DNA of 24,777 nt from a virus. Under the pieces are notes generated by a model. It was not told where the DNA came from. It ran no database searches and saw only the letters and a list, made by a program, of their open reading frames with translations. The position numbers were made by a program, and so were the translations under genes. The stretch is from the IMG/VR virus record IMGVR_UViG_3300037010_000096, positions 1-24,777 of that record, one strand, 5' to 3'. Numbering within the stretch: position 1 is the first letter of the stretch; every line of letters begins with the position of its first letter. Shown one piece after another: positions 18,109 to 24,777 of the stretch.

Positions 18109-21100
18109 CTACTTAGGAGTCATAAATTTAAATAAATCCATATATATCTCTAAACCGCTAGGTGTAACACCAGTTTCAACTATATCTAAAGGATTAAGGT
18201 GCATCATAATACCTAAGTCTTTAACGAACATAGAAGAATCTTGTATTACACTTAAATCTAGTAATGCATAGTTAGCAGTTAATGCTAATGCAGAACTTAA
18301 AGATCTATCTTTAACCTGTTTTCTAATCACTTTCTGAATACCAACAAAGTATTTAGTAAACATAAACAAACCAATAGAGTTAGCGAAATCTAGGCTCTTA
18401 GGATCAGGTAGATCATATTGGATAAATGCTTCAGCTATGAAAGTCATAATATCTGATTTAGATAATTGCTTATCTTTAGGTAATTTATTATTCTCAGCTA
18501 TAGTATGTTTATGCAGTACGTATCTACCAACAAAGTCACTATATTTAACAGTATTGTTTAAAAGCTTAAACATACTAGTATTAGGATTCATCATCAAATG
18601 ATCCACTACAGCACCAGCATAAGGTATCTTACTGAGCTTATCTATACCTGTACTAGCTAAAGCACTTTTACTACTAATGAATGTAGCAGCCATCTTAGGA
18701 AGACTTAATAACGGATCTGTTAAGTTATTAGCACCTACGTCTTCTGTAATAGATTGGAAGAAGCCTTCTTTAACTAAATCTCTAATAGGACTCTTATCAA
18801 GTACGTTATTCAGCATTTCAATTCTACGTTGAGTAGCTGTTTTAGCTGAACCAGTCATACCAGATAGTTTAGCTTGCAGTGTTAACATCTCTGCTCTTAT
18901 GTCTAAGAATTTCTTAAGTTCTAAAGCACCATCCCTATAACCATTATAAATGTCTTTTAGAGGTACACCTTGGATAGCTAAGTAGATAGTGTTAGATATT
19001 AAGTTAGCTTCTACTACTTTAGGCATACGAATAACAATTTTGTTCTTTGTTAAAGATACAAAATCTTGCCAAGTTCTGGTAATCAGGTTACTAAAGTATT
19101 TGACAGGTACTTTAGGCATCTTAGCTTGCATAAACTTAACAATAGAAGAGTCACCTACTAAGTATTTTTCAAAACCAAGAGCCAAAGGTACAGAGCCTTT
19201 TGGTACAGGTATTCCTGATCTACCGAAAGTACTTTCTATATCTGCTTTAGTTTGAGCAGGTAAACTCTTATACAAATCACCATATTCTTTATGGTTAGCG
19301 TCTATCCATTCAAACTTATTAGCGTTAGTAGCTTTTTCAGCATCCCACTGACGTTTAGCTACTTCTACCATCTTAGTATTATGATTAGGAGTCAGTTGCT
19401 TATTTAACTTACTTCCATACATTCTACCTAAAGCTTCTGATGCGCTATACTTTTTATTCAGATGCTTAACTCTATTACTTTCAGAAATATTGATTACATA
19501 ATCAATAATTTCACCATTATTATTAAGAATAGGTACGAAATCCCTAGAAGCATTTAAGTTATTAACACGTTTTGCTATCTCTTTTGGATCAGTAATTCCA
19601 GCATCTCTAAGCATGTCAGAATAAGAAGTACCTTTACGTCTGTTAGACATTAAACTAAATACGCCTGAATGTACTTGAGCTTTCATGACATTAGAGCGTA
19701 CATACATACTGAGGCTAGTACCTGTAATAGGATCTTGTACCATTAGTTCTGTAGTATTCCAACCGTCTGCTTTAAGCTCTTTAACATCACTTGTACGCAT
19801 AAAAGCATATTCTTTAGTGTTATCGATAGCTTCTCTAGTGTAGCCTTTAATCATCTGTAGCTCAGAACCGTGGAATATAGTTTCTTTAGTATCCTGTACA
19901 TAGCCTCTATGGAACTCTAGAAGGTTATTCAACCCTTCCTCTAGACCGCCAATACCATCTAATGTAGTTACATCTACAGAAGCTTTTTGAATAGCTAATG
20001 CAGTTATGTATGCATCAAGGTCAGGTACACTAATTTCAGATTTAGCATGTAAAGCAATTGCTGTAGAGTTTCTTAACTGGTTCTTCTGTGAAGTTTTACC
20101 TGTAATCATATACTCAGCTAAACCGTTAGCTTGGCTGATAATAGCAGGAGACAGTTTAAGTCTTGCTTCAGTATCTTTAATGAACTTAGCTAACTTAGAG
20201 GAATCTTTAAGCATATCAATAGTAGCTTTAACGTCGTAGTTTAAATGAGCGTGTAGAGCTTGTAGATCAGTTCTGAGTACAGTACGCTCTAAGAAGTCAT
20301 CCTGCTCTTCCGTGAGCTTTGTAAAGCCATTTTTAACACTACCAGTAACAGTCTCTTGAATAGCTTTACGATGCATCTCAATACCTGCTTTAGTGACACG
20401 TAAAGCTTTTATCCAAGGTTTAGATAATGGATCTTCAGTGAAGACCTGATGATACAGATGCTTCAATAAGCCAGTATCTTTAAGGACAGTAGCATGTGCT
20501 AAAGTGCTTAGTGCTTGAGTTCTATCTTCATAGGTTAAAATGCTACTAGCAGCTCTTAGAGCTTCTACATCTGTATAACCCATAGTTGATTTAGCTAAGT
20601 TGTAGTAAGCCCACTGAGCTAATTTAAGCTGTTCTGGATCCAGTCTTGTAGACGTAGTAGATGTAGTTGTAGGTTTGTTAGATTGCTTCTCATACCAAGC
20701 ATCATACTTCTCACTAAACTTATCGAAAGTAGTACTTACTTTCTTGTTAGCTGCTTCTACAGCATTGTCAACTTTGTTTAAAAAGCCATCTGAACTAGCT
20801 GCAATTTTACTCTTAGCTTCTACTTCAATTAAGTGTTGAGCTAAACTTATTAAAGCATCATGTACATTAGTTGGTTTACGTCCTTCAACAGATTTATCTA
20901 ACAACTTACCAATAAGATTAAGCACTGCTGTAACAATCTTATCTAAGAAAGAACCTTCTTTAACTAGTTTTAGAATAGCTGAAGGAGTTTGGATAGTATT
21001 AGTATCCTTAATATTCTTAAGAGCATCTCTAAAGTTAGGATTAGATAAACCAAAAGAAATAAACTCTAACAATCCTACGTTAGTGCCGTTAATACTCTTT

Positions 21101-24100
21101 GTGTTATTGAAGATATAGTCATAAAGAGCTTTAGCTTCTGCAATCTCTTGAGCAGTATTAGTTAGAGTATTGTTAGGCAGAAATACTGTGTAATCCAAAG
21201 CATCCTTAGCCATAGTCCAAAGGTCTAACAACTCTTTAGATTTAACTCCCTCTAGTGCAGATGCAGTAGTAGCTACGTGTAAGAATTCATGTAATAGAAT
21301 TTCAGTATTAGACTGAGTAACGTTATTTACTGGACTAGCTTGACGAATAACATCAATCTTACGGTTGATAGTATCAGCTGAACCTGTGTTTAAAGAACCA
21401 TCATGTAGTTCTACTAATACTGGATCTATAGCAGTCGATACTTTACTGTAGAGTTTGCCTAAAAGGTCTTGCATCTCTTTTAAATAACTAGGATTTACAT
21501 TCTGGTTATCTTTAGCTGCAACAGTTGTAGCTAGTGTAAGGATGTCTTCTACACTATTAACTGTATCACTAGAAACCAAAGAAGTAAGGGTAGCTTTGTC
21601 AGCATTAGGATTACCAAATAAGCTTCCGTCTTCTTTAGATGTATCTTCAGTAGTGTCTTTAGAAGTATCCGCTAAAGAATCAGGATCTAACATACTCTTA
21701 TAACTAGTAATCATATCCTGTAAGCTTGGTAGCTTTTTAGGTGTAATTTTAGCTCTAATAGCTCCCATACCACCAGCAGTAGGGTATTGATCTACTGTGG
21801 CTTCATTACTGAATAATATTGAGTTATTGTCATTAATATACTTAGTATACATGTCGTATATACCATATAGATCAACAGCTTCATCACTATTTTTTGAAGA
21901 TCTTGGTGTAAGCATCTTAGAATTGACTGTTTTAAGCTCTTCATCAGTAAAGTGACCTAGTACTTTATCACTATCTGAAGAATTTAGACTAACTTCAAGT
22001 CTAGCTAGTAAAAATCTTTTGTTCAATAATGATGACATAGAATCCTCTAAAGGATTATACATCTCCATCAATTCAATAGTAGATTCGTTCAGGAATCTAG
22101 ATACTTGAGCTGCGTGTTCACTACTGGTTTTAACAGCATCAAATACATGCAATCCTGTAATACCAGCAGCTTTCATTTTCTTAATGGTTAGAGCCATAAT
22201 AGCCGCATCTTGAGCATGAGTCATTAATGCAGAAGCAGCTACACCAGGATCACCTACATCTTTACGTTCGACACCAATATTTCTAGAAGCTACTGTTTTA
22301 CCAACTATGGTAGGCTGCATATCTTCAGATATACCAGCATAGCTATTAGCTGAATGCTTCATGTTAACTGTAGCTCTATCATTAGTACCTTCAACTACTA
22401 ATGTAAATACAGGAGAACCTACTATTTGCTTATCGTCCTCAAAAAGGTAAGGCTTACTATCCTTTAACCCAAAAGGCCCGTTAAATGATGGTATGAAAGG
22501 TCTTAACTGTTTAGCTAAACTTTCAGCCTGCTTAATAGTCATATCATTATCATTAGGATTAATACCTAAAGACTCTTTAATACGCTTCTCAGCCTCTTTA
22601 TATATAGTGTACTGCTCTTGGAATATTTTAGTAGTTAACTTAGCAACATTACGTTGATTAGACATAATTTCAGATACAGCTATAGTTAAGGATTCAGCGG
22701 TAGGTTTTATTAACTTATCTTTTAATACATTTAGTTGTTTAGGTGTAAGTCTAAAATTAATAGCATTTTCAGGTGAAAGGCTATCTATATTCCTCATACC
22801 GTTAGTGTCAGTAATGTCTTTAGCTAAAGCTTGTTTCAAAGACTTTTTGAAAGCATCAAATGCTGTTCTATCGCCTTGTTTAGCTAAATTAGCTACATAC
22901 ATTATACGGTTAGGTATATGTGTACTAAAAATTTCATCGGTAACATTACCATCAATGGTAGATTCACCAGCATTGTATGAGAATACCATTAATGGGTTTT
23001 TATTCAGTTCTCTAGCAATTTTTGATATAATACCATCATCACTTACTAATACTTCACCTAGCAGATTGGAAATAGCTTTTAATTTAGCTTGTGCAACTTC
23101 AGGTGCATCGTTAGAGAATACACTTTTCAATACTCCAGACATACCCTCAGCATTATGCTCGTATATGTCAGATTCATGATGCCCTACTAAACCATTTTTA
23201 TTAGAAGCCCAATCAGCAAATGATTTAAAAGAGTTATTTAAGTATATACCTACTTTACGTAATAACGTTTCTTGAGTTGCTAAGTCACCAATAGGACTCT
23301 GTACTAAAGCTAAGAATACGCCATTAGATTTACCATCTACTTCTACTACTAGAGTGGATGTAAATTTATGTTTAGTTGCTTTACCTTCTCTAGGGAAACG
23401 GAGAGTAAGGTTAGCTAAATCCATAAGAGTACTTAAGTCTTCTACTTTACCTACCATACCTTCAGTAGTATTGATTGCTTTATATAGCTTACCAATATCT
23501 ACAGATGTAGATATAGATGTGTCTTCATTTAAAAGCTTCTGTAGGTCATTTAAAGCGTCCTCTGAGAGGTTCTTAGACAGTGTTGTCATAAGTTTTCTCA
23601 TGCTTTTACGAGCACTCTCTACAGCAGCAGTATCAGACTTCTCGTCTATTAAACCAAGGTTAGATGCTAAAGCATCTTTATAGTCATTATTGGTAGCAGG
23701 AGCTTTAATTACATTATGTGAGTTGCTGTCTACTAAGAACAGTCTATGAATAGCTTTATCACTTCCTGGATTGATTGTAGAATCTAATCTGATACGATCA
23801 TTCACATCAACTGCATATCTGGCAAAGAAGTCATTATCTAACTTAGAAGTATCTTGACCAATATCATTATCAATAAAATCTAGTAGTCTCTTAACACTAC
23901 GAATATGATCAGTTATTACAGCTTCTTGCTCTATACGCTTCATAGCCTGTACATTGTTATCAACGAAGTATCTTACACTCTCAGTAATTTCAGTATCATC
24001 TAAACCAGTAAGTTTAAAGTTGCCTAAATCACTTAGTGATTGGATGACTTGTTGGGCAGCAGCTACTCTAGTAGAAGGTTCTACTAATAACCTAACCAAG

Positions 24101-24777
24101 TATGGATTAAACTTAAATGGAGTTTCATTTAAAGTCTTAGCAGCATTTGTAACTTCTTTAGGCGGTACTCTATTCGCAGCTCTAGTAGTTTTGACACTGC
24201 CATAGGCAGCAGGTTGTAGAGCTTTGGTATCAGTTCGCGATTCACCTCTAAAAGCTTCTAGAATGTCTTTACCTGAAGGATCTTTTAACTGCTTCATCAG
24301 TTCTTCCCAAACAGCTTCGTTATCTACATTAAACTTAAAATATAAGTTTGTAGCTACACTCTTACTCGGTGTTGGTGCTCTTGTTGGATTCTGCAGAATT
24401 TGTTTAAGCTCTGCAACTGCACTATTAGGTACTTCAGAATAGGTTACTAAACCAAGGATGTTCAAGTAGTTTAGTGCTGCTACACCTAGAGCTGTATGCA
24501 TAGCATCTTTATCTTCTACAAAAGATTCCTCAGAAAATTCGATATTACTCATTCTAGCAATATCTTTACCAATACTCATCGCAGCAGTACTTACAGGTAA
24601 GCCTACTGTCTTTAAGAATGCTTCAGCTTTACGTACATATTCAACAGGTACTTTTGCCAAACTCTTAGCACCAAAAACCTGCTCTACCGTACTTAAAGTA
24701 ATGTCGGTAGTACTCTTAAGCATGAATTTAGCATAATCTAAAGCAGCAACTACTACATGTGCTGCAACTGTAGGATC
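18109..24777 (-). CDS. N4-like virion-encapsidated RNA polymerase (5' end outside window)
   Basis: The frame is open to the window edge; the 18 codons beyond Met 24723 read as normal protein (start DPTVAAHVVV), so that Met is internal and over 2,220 residues are visible. Numbering from Met 24723, single-subunit RNAP motifs are: T/DxxGR-like D306-V-N-D-R310; motif A EVDGKSNG with D463; motif B R571-x3-K575-x3-M579-x3-Y583; motif C GLHVFDA with D862, preceded by THAQDAA. K575-Y583 spacing equals that of N4 vRNAP, and D463-K575-D862 spacing is nearly the same. It would be packaged, injected and transcribe early genes. The C-terminal half has HEFLH at 1145-1149, a Thr/Ser linker near 1350 and a long helical region. 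About 1,000 further residues probably lie upstream. Confidence 0.9.
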   Translation of the reverse strand, partial: DPTVAAHVVVAALDYAKFMLKSTTDITLSTVEQVFGAKSLAKVPVEYVRKAEAFLKTVGLPVSTAAMSIGKDIARMSNIEFSEESFVEDKDAMHTALGVAALNYLNILGLVTYSEVPNSAVAELKQILQNPTRAPTPSKSVATNLYFKFNVDNEAVWEELMKQLKDPSGKDILEAFRGESRTDTKALQPAAYGSVKTTRAANRVPPKEVTNAAKTLNETPFKFNPYLVRLLVEPSTRVAAAQQVIQSLSDLGNFKLTGLDDTEITESVRYFVDNNVQAMKRIEQEAVITDHIRSVKRLLDFIDNDIGQDTSKLDNDFFARYAVDVNDRIRLDSTINPGSDKAIHRLFLVDSNSHNVIKAPATNNDYKDALASNLGLIDEKSDTAAVESARKSMRKLMTTLSKNLSEDALNDLQKLLNEDTSISTSVDIGKLYKAINTTEGMVGKVEDLSTLMDLANLTLRFPREGKATKHKFTSTLVVEVDGKSNGVFLALVQSPIGDLATQETLLRKVGIYLNNSFKSFADWASNKNGLVGHHESDIYEHNAEGMSGVLKSVFSNDAPEVAQAKLKAISNLLGEVLVSDDGIISKIARELNKNPLMVFSYNAGESTIDGNVTDEIFSTHIPNRIMYVANLAKQGDRTAFDAFKKSLKQALAKDITDTNGMRNIDSLSPENAINFRLTPKQLNVLKDKLIKPTAESLTIAVSEIMSNQRNVAKLTTKIFQEQYTIYKEAEKRIKESLGINPNDNDMTIKQAESLAKQLRPFIPSFNGPFGLKDSKPYLFEDDKQIVGSPVFTLVVEGTNDRATVNMKHSANSYAGISEDMQPTIVGKTVASRNIGVERKDVGDPGVAASALMTHAQDAAIMALTIKKMKAAGITGLHVFDAVKTSSEHAAQVSRFLNESTIELMEMYNPLEDSMSSLLNKRFLLARLEVSLNSSDSDKVLGHFTDEELKTVNSKMLTPRSSKNSDEAVDLYGIYDMYTKYINDNNSILFSNEATVDQYPTAGGMGAIRAKITPKKLPSLQDMITSYKSMLDPDSLADTSKDTTEDTSKEDGSLFGNPNADKATLTSLVSSDTVNSVEDILTLATTVAAKDNQNVNPSYLKEMQDLLGKLYSKVSTAIDPVLVELHDGSLNTGSADTINRKIDVIRQASPVNNVTQSNTEILLHEFLHVATTASALEGVKSKELLDLWTMAKDALDYTVFLPNNTLTNTAQEIAEAKALYDYIFNNTKSINGTNVGLLEFISFGLSNPNFRDALKNIKDTNTIQTPSAILKLVKEGSFLDKIVTAVLNLIGKLLDKSVEGRKPTNVHDALISLAQHLIEVEAKSKIAASSDGFLNKVDNAVEAANKKVSTTFDKFSEKYDAWYEKQSNKPTTTSTTSTRLDPEQLKLAQWAYYNLAKSTMGYTDVEALRAASSILTYEDRTQALSTLAHATVLKDTGLLKHLYHQVFTEDPLSKPWIKALRVTKAGIEMHRKAIQETVTGSVKNGFTKLTEEQDDFLERTVLRTDLQALHAHLNYDVKATIDMLKDSSKLAKFIKDTEARLKLSPAIISQANGLAEYMITGKTSQKNQLRNSTAIALHAKSEISVPDLDAYITALAIQKASVDVTTLDGIGGLEEGLNNLLEFHRGYVQDTKETIFHGSELQMIKGYTREAIDNTKEYAFMRTSDVKELKADGWNTTELMVQDPITGTSLSMYVRSNVMKAQVHSGVFSLMSNRRKGTSYSDMLRDAGITDPKEIAKRVNNLNASRDFVPILNNNGEIIDYVINISESNRVKHLNKKYSASEALGRMYGSKLNKQLTPNHNTKMVEVAKRQWDAEKATNANKFEWIDANHKEYGDLYKSLPAQTKADIESTFGRSGIPVPKGSVPLALGFEKYLVGDSSIVKFMQAKMPKVPVKYFSNLITRTWQDFVSLTKNKIVIRMPKVVEANLISNTIYLAIQGVPLKDIYNGYRDGALELKKFLDIRAEMLTLQAKLSGMTGSAKTATQRRIEMLNNVLDKSPIRDLVKEGFFQSITEDVGANNLTDPLLSLPKMAATFISSKSALASTGIDKLSKIPYAGAVVDHLMMNPNTSMFKLLNNTVKYSDFVGRYVLHKHTIAENNKLPKDKQLSKSDIMTFIAEAFIQYDLPDPKSLDFANSIGLFMFTKYFVGIQKVIRKQVKDRSLSSALALTANYALLDLSVIQDSSMFVKDLGIMMHLNPLDIVETGVTPSGLEIYMDLFKFMTPK

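Follow-up and report, generated by a model that had tools for sequence, protein, structure and literature searches.

Zincin-like domains in phage virion proteins

The virion RNA polymerase (vRNAP) of phage N4 has been under study for decades. The closest described relative of the domain discussed here is a highly conserved HEXXH domain within N4 vRNAP itself, which Iyer et al. mapped in 2017 to amino acids 2130-2448 and unified with the zincin-like metallopeptidases (PMC5512222). It was proposed at that time that the domain processes its own protein, either in the head or after injection, or that it cleaves host proteins (PMC5512222). N4 vRNAP is packaged unprocessed and its C-terminal region is required for encapsidation. 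DdrB of P1, another MPTase-bearing polyvalent protein, undergoes processing ahead of packaging (PMC5512222). The description of the zincin has been extended to Pectobacterium phages (PMC8472413). In the 2025 preprint of Bellis et al., based on cryo-EM (9PNR), a "conserved HExxH motif" is reported in C1 (residues 2124-2375), no structural homology was found for C2 (2376-3500), and the role of the C-terminal region is called unknown; the CTD lowers the activity of the N4 polymerase, i.e. autoinhibition, and no degradation of recombinant N4 vRNAP was observed (PMC12633501).

Related combinations are found outside the vRNAPs. In Thermus phage P23-45, the giant virion protein gp96 likewise combines an RNA polymerase with a metallopeptidase domain, but gp96 is a tail tape measure protein, and its polymerase belongs by homology with cellular RNAPs and is not T7-like (PMC10770324). 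The internal virion protein 9sfn_G (1337 aa) has the same active-site pair as the domain studied here, HEAVH and ELVAWGLT within residues 412-535 (E=4e-7), and a weak match was obtained with the ejection protein gp48 (8vb2_A, E=0.014). Both are much shorter ejection proteins, and unlike our polymerase they are not vRNAPs by name. The zincin type with the HExxH...ELVAWGLT pair is shared with ejection proteins of other phages (9sfn_G).

A zincin-like domain in N4 vRNAP is already published, and the basic claim is not new. The original prediction, made on the window (the whole 24,777-nucleotide stretch of viral DNA that was analysed), had stated that no such activity was known to be described for N4 vRNAP, whereas Iyer et al. 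describe exactly such a domain and suggest similar kinds of role for it (PMC5512222). In the open-access papers searched, no report was found that the intact copy of the window differs from that of N4, or of the regular pattern in which one intact copy is retained across vRNAPs.

The virion RNA polymerase gene of the window

The minus-strand ORF 18109-24723(-) encodes 2204 residues. Its ATG is only the first in-window one and is internal: the frame is open up to the window edge at 24777, and the window cuts the protein off at its N-terminus. An IMG/VR copy (L001) has a 100% identical ORF, which reaches its full 3300 aa from an upstream ATG, so HEFLH and E1220, as numbered below in the window, fall at about residues 2241 and 2316 of the real protein. 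The ORF matches PHROG 2206, "virion RNA polymerase", with E=8e-211, and the window vRNAP was matched in 455 phage records. A T7-type RNA polymerase motif C region lies at residues 836-909 (21997..22218, minus strand); PHROG 414, RNA polymerase, matches the ORF with E=2e-7, and Pfam PF00940 matches the region with E=0.0012, under its gathering score. The gene fits an N4-type (Schitoviridae) vRNAP, made of a T7-type RNAP and a long C-terminal region. It is oriented opposite to the replication genes of the window, and the gene order is N4-like.

The polymerase is followed by a low-complexity linker (residues about 1013-1044, 21592..21687, minus strand), and then by a zincin-like metallopeptidase domain delimited by HMM at residues 1094-1317 (20773..21444, minus strand), which we assign below to tandem copy type Y. 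The window zincin is the first folded unit past the polymerase in this N4-type vRNAP. Behind it comes a C2-type C-terminal region (18112..20772, minus strand), collinear with the PHROG 2206 alignment and 887 aa long, compared to 893 aa in N4. The end of the protein (residues 1884-2140, window positions 18304-19074) matches PHROG 19273 with E=2e-22, a 4846-aa profile of unknown function; this end domain thus also occurs in a further family of giant phage proteins.

The HExxH site and its third ligand

As originally predicted, HEFLH stands at residues 1145-1149 (21277..21291, minus strand). It is the sole HExxH of the 2204-residue product, where composition predicts 0.03. By motif and alignment, H1145 and H1149 are putative zinc ligands and E1146 the putative catalytic base. 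E1220 (21064..21066, minus strand) is located where it had been placed, within GLLEFISFGLSNPNF, in an EFxAxGLTN motif. An alignment was made of 15 divergent vRNAP domains, 17-26% identical to the window domain. E1146, H1149 and E1220 were invariant in 15/15, and H1145 was present in 14/15. The proposal of E1220 as third zinc ligand is thereby borne out, and settled as far as sequence can settle it.

Alignment of homologues, suggested as a check on the HExxH, showed the motif recurring at the homologous place in distant vRNAPs, including N4 gp50. Among 16 phages chosen by tblastn, all with the N4-type copy X (see below), only 5 positions were fully invariant over an 800-residue stretch: N1965, which is a polymerase residue, H2228, E2229, H2232 and E2310 (N4 numbering). 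These phages are free of the bias of the ALNEFMAW search pattern, by which the conservation of E2310 is partly built in for the 80 IMG/VR loci; the latter were retrieved by exact match to peptides from the N4 domain, and N4-like sequences are over-represented among them. Searches of the window domain against Pfam, NCBIfam and, as a single sequence, the PDB gave nothing significant, and scans with L004, L005 and L009 as queries found no relatives.

The metzincin motif is HExxHxxGxxH/D. The window reads HEFLHVATTAS, and the metzincin reading was rejected. With its HExxH and distal Glu, the window domain is a predicted gluzincin-like zinc metallopeptidase domain; the invariant columns and the predicted order of secondary structures uphold the idea of a gluzincin-type domain of the kind found in polyvalent proteins.

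The AF2 model of the window domain (mc33af7c05039, 35 aligned sequences, pTM 0.58) has helices at model positions 9-29, 70-85 (with HExxH at 76-80) and 147-158 (with E1220 at 151), and strands at 34-40, 44-48 and 53-59, i.e. residues 1103-1109, 1113-1117 and 1122-1128. The strands would form the three-stranded beta sheet of a zincin core (residues 1103-1128, 21340..21417, minus strand), a prediction of modest confidence. The succession of a helix, three strands, the HExxH helix and the Glu helix is the zincin order, in a model with a mean pLDDT of only 63.6; in ten-residue blocks, the pLDDT was 81 around HExxH and 87 around E1220. TEILL, first read as a hydrophobic strand, is modelled instead as the start of the active-site helix (model positions 70-85, residues 1139-1154). 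A Foldseek search of the PDB with the window model yielded no match at E<=0.001. The best ranks, none of which reached this threshold, comprised the zincins 4l7a, abylysin 4jiu (probability 0.77), lethal factor, selecase and IrrE, interspersed with unrelated helical folds.

Two tandem copies, X and Y

The profile of the 15 domains matches N4 gp50 twice, at 2179-2410 (C1) and at 2440-2641 (E=1e-5), the second match being devoid of HExxH. We therefore distinguish two profiles, X for the N4 C1 type and Y for the window type, with which 97 vRNAPs were scanned; 12 genomes were held out of profile building. With Y built leave-one-out, the window domain reaches 88 bits, compared to 32 bits with X. 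The Y alignment scores 38.8 bits with residues 2438-2641 of N4 and 5.9 bits with C1, and hhalign joins intact Y and dead Y over 210 columns (E=1e-20). As a control, shuffled or reversed sequences gave at most 4.7 bits on the Y profile, compared to 42.5 for the N4 dead copy; the assignment of a few dead copies, with scores down to 6-9 bits, is uncertain. These profile scores rule out that the window domain is the orthologue of the C1 zincin of N4 (copy X). Judged by the same profiles, it is the counterpart of the dead copy of N4, at about 2438-2641.

In this dead copy, the columns of H, E, H and the third E read F, Q, T and T, and in the Y of N4 and most relatives both histidines and the third Glu are gone. 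E1141 of the window (21301..21303, minus strand), a conserved Glu 4 residues ahead of HExxH, is retained in many dead copies too. In most vRNAPs, copy Y occupies the same place ahead of a C-terminal tail of 846-938 residues. In phage N4 gp50 (L016), the decayed zincin at 2438-2641 opens C2, directly past the intact C1 zincin, and on this sequence evidence we reassign the start of C2 to a decayed zincin. Because the AF2 model of the N4 dead copy is all helical and its only Foldseek match is N4's own region (TM 0.51), its zincin ancestry is drawn from sequence profiles and position; the beta sheet may have been lost.

The window domain thus resembles the N4 and polyvalent zincin-like MPTase (PMC5512222) in its superfamily, in the phage protein that carries it, in its HExxH and distal Glu, and in its place between the RNAP and the C-terminal region. 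Like N4 C1 (9PNR), it lies directly past the RNAP-CTD linker. However, the working copy of N4 is X (C1, 2124-2375) whereas that of the window is Y; its homology to C1 is only distant, and its counterpart in N4 is dead and inside C2. In the open-access literature searched, we found neither the dead copy nor complementary retention mentioned.

Which copy is kept

Among the 109 vRNAPs, which fall into 86 clusters at 80% identity, nearly all combine an intact X with a dead Y. This is the state of 69 of the 86 clusters; in 3 others X is intact and Y was not found, and 1 has two X-type sites. Nine clusters include vRNAPs with Y only, 2 include vRNAPs with both, and 3 show no intact site, 2 of which (L088 and L095) correspond to contig ends. 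The Y-only state concerns the window and 10 others among the 109 vRNAPs. An intact Y directly past the polymerase is found in the window, PT15-A5, pYD6-A, D456 and MS02, as well as in JA-1, VCO139, phi50-12 and L099. Both copies are intact in PG11 and phi 1 only. All 12 held-out genomes keep one intact site, X in 10 of them (a dead Y was detected in 9 of these 10) and only Y in the remaining 2.

The Vibrio phages allow a close comparison, as the vRNAPs of phi 1 (L098) and of VCO139 and JA-1 (L097 and L010) are 96-97% identical. Between phi 1 and VCO139, a single in-frame block of 218 aa differs (phi 1 residues 1849-2066), and this block is copy X. The difference is a clean in-frame deletion of X, so a vRNAP with an intact Y can lack X. 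In a quick tree of the tail, at least 3 changes are forced by well-supported branches. It suggests that the Y-only state arose or persisted in several places, with the uncertainty that comes with long branches.

The Alteromonas AD45 phages are the only true exception, with neither copy intact. Their site reads EEVVH, with the third Glu retained and no further HExxH in the vRNAP gene, which is marked frameshifted in the record; the first codon of the motif, GAA, is two base changes away from His. The site can thus be lost. Close to the 3' end of the vRNAP gene of AD45-P1 (L006, L100), a gene is annotated as a ClpP-like protease.

Proposed function and alternatives

The site of one copy was repeatedly lost while the other copy stayed intact, from which we propose that one working zinc site per polymerase is selected, either copy supplying it, and that it would serve as a peptidase after ejection, on a host or ejectosome substrate or on the protein itself. 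We give this reading a probability of about 0.7. The complementary retention of the two zincin copies argues that selection acts on an enzymatic site, and catalysis is the most likely role of the domain, ahead of one as a simple spacer; the AD45 phages, without an intact site, count against one-site selection. N4-type vRNAPs would then probably go back to an ancestor that had two zinc peptidases in tandem, of which lineages silenced or deleted either, nearly always keeping one that works. The peptidase activity of the injected polymerase would be under strong selection, and C2 of N4 would begin with a dead protease.

The zincin would stay inactive inside the virion, N4 vRNAP being packaged uncut, and would work as a peptidase once the protein has been ejected and has refolded in the host cell. 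The unprocessed state of packaged N4 vRNAP (PMC5512222) speaks, at least in that phage, against the role in virion-protein maturation that was first suggested. The target would be a host or ejectosome protein, or the protein's own chain near the RNAP-CTD junction, in which case the cut would detach the polymerase from the CTD, an inhibitor in N4. The evidence does not separate these substrates; self-cleavage and a host or ejectosome target are equally compatible with it. No report of proteolysis by any vRNAP was found in the open-access literature searched.

Self-cleavage after ejection, for instance in the linker between polymerase and CTD, which would relieve autoinhibition, is a tentative option. 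It would account for the position of the working copy beside the linker, the intact copy being the first domain past it in both architectures. The inhibition of N4 RNAP by the CTD (PMC12633501) and the processing of P1 DdrB before packaging (PMC5512222) point the same way. However, conservation within the region is lowest in the RNAP-CTD linker (majority residue 16-17%), and a conserved cut site sought in this linker of the vRNAPs was not found. N4 vRNAP is moreover packaged uncut (PMC5512222), and the recombinant protein was obtained without degradation (PMC12633501).

We hold with the same reserve that the zincin is a host-directed effector, cleaving at entry a host or envelope protein involved in defence, transcription or the membrane. 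The active residues are retained while the surrounding sequence diverges, the same motif pair is present in the solved internal virion protein 9sfn_G, and roles in conflict were proposed for the polyvalent-protein context (PMC5512222). On the other hand, conservation of the site across phages of many host genera calls for a conserved target, or for a self target.

A structural metal site, where zinc would only stabilise the fold that the protein needs to be encapsidated or to refold once ejected, seems unlikely, even though encapsidation needs the C-terminal region (PMC5512222) and the dead copies are still present as predicted helical domains. The Glu of HExxH, which is catalytic and no metal ligand, equals the ligands in conservation while dead copies are maintained, and this argues against a purely structural role; the dead copies also show that loss of the site is tolerated, yet one intact site is nearly always retained. 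Finally, a chance HExxH in a helical region, for which about 0.03 is expected per protein and which could well occur somewhere in a genome, is refuted by the retention of HExxH and the distal Glu across the vRNAP family, in very distant members and far beyond chance.

Other HExxH motifs in vRNAPs

An extra HExxH of another type (e.g. HEMAHIID) was observed ahead of the polymerase domain, at residues about 950-1180, in L079, L084, L086, L089, L090, L099, L104 and L105; its carriers include EE36phi1, RPP1 and several metagenomic vRNAPs. In L096, a second X-type zincin is located at 357-553.
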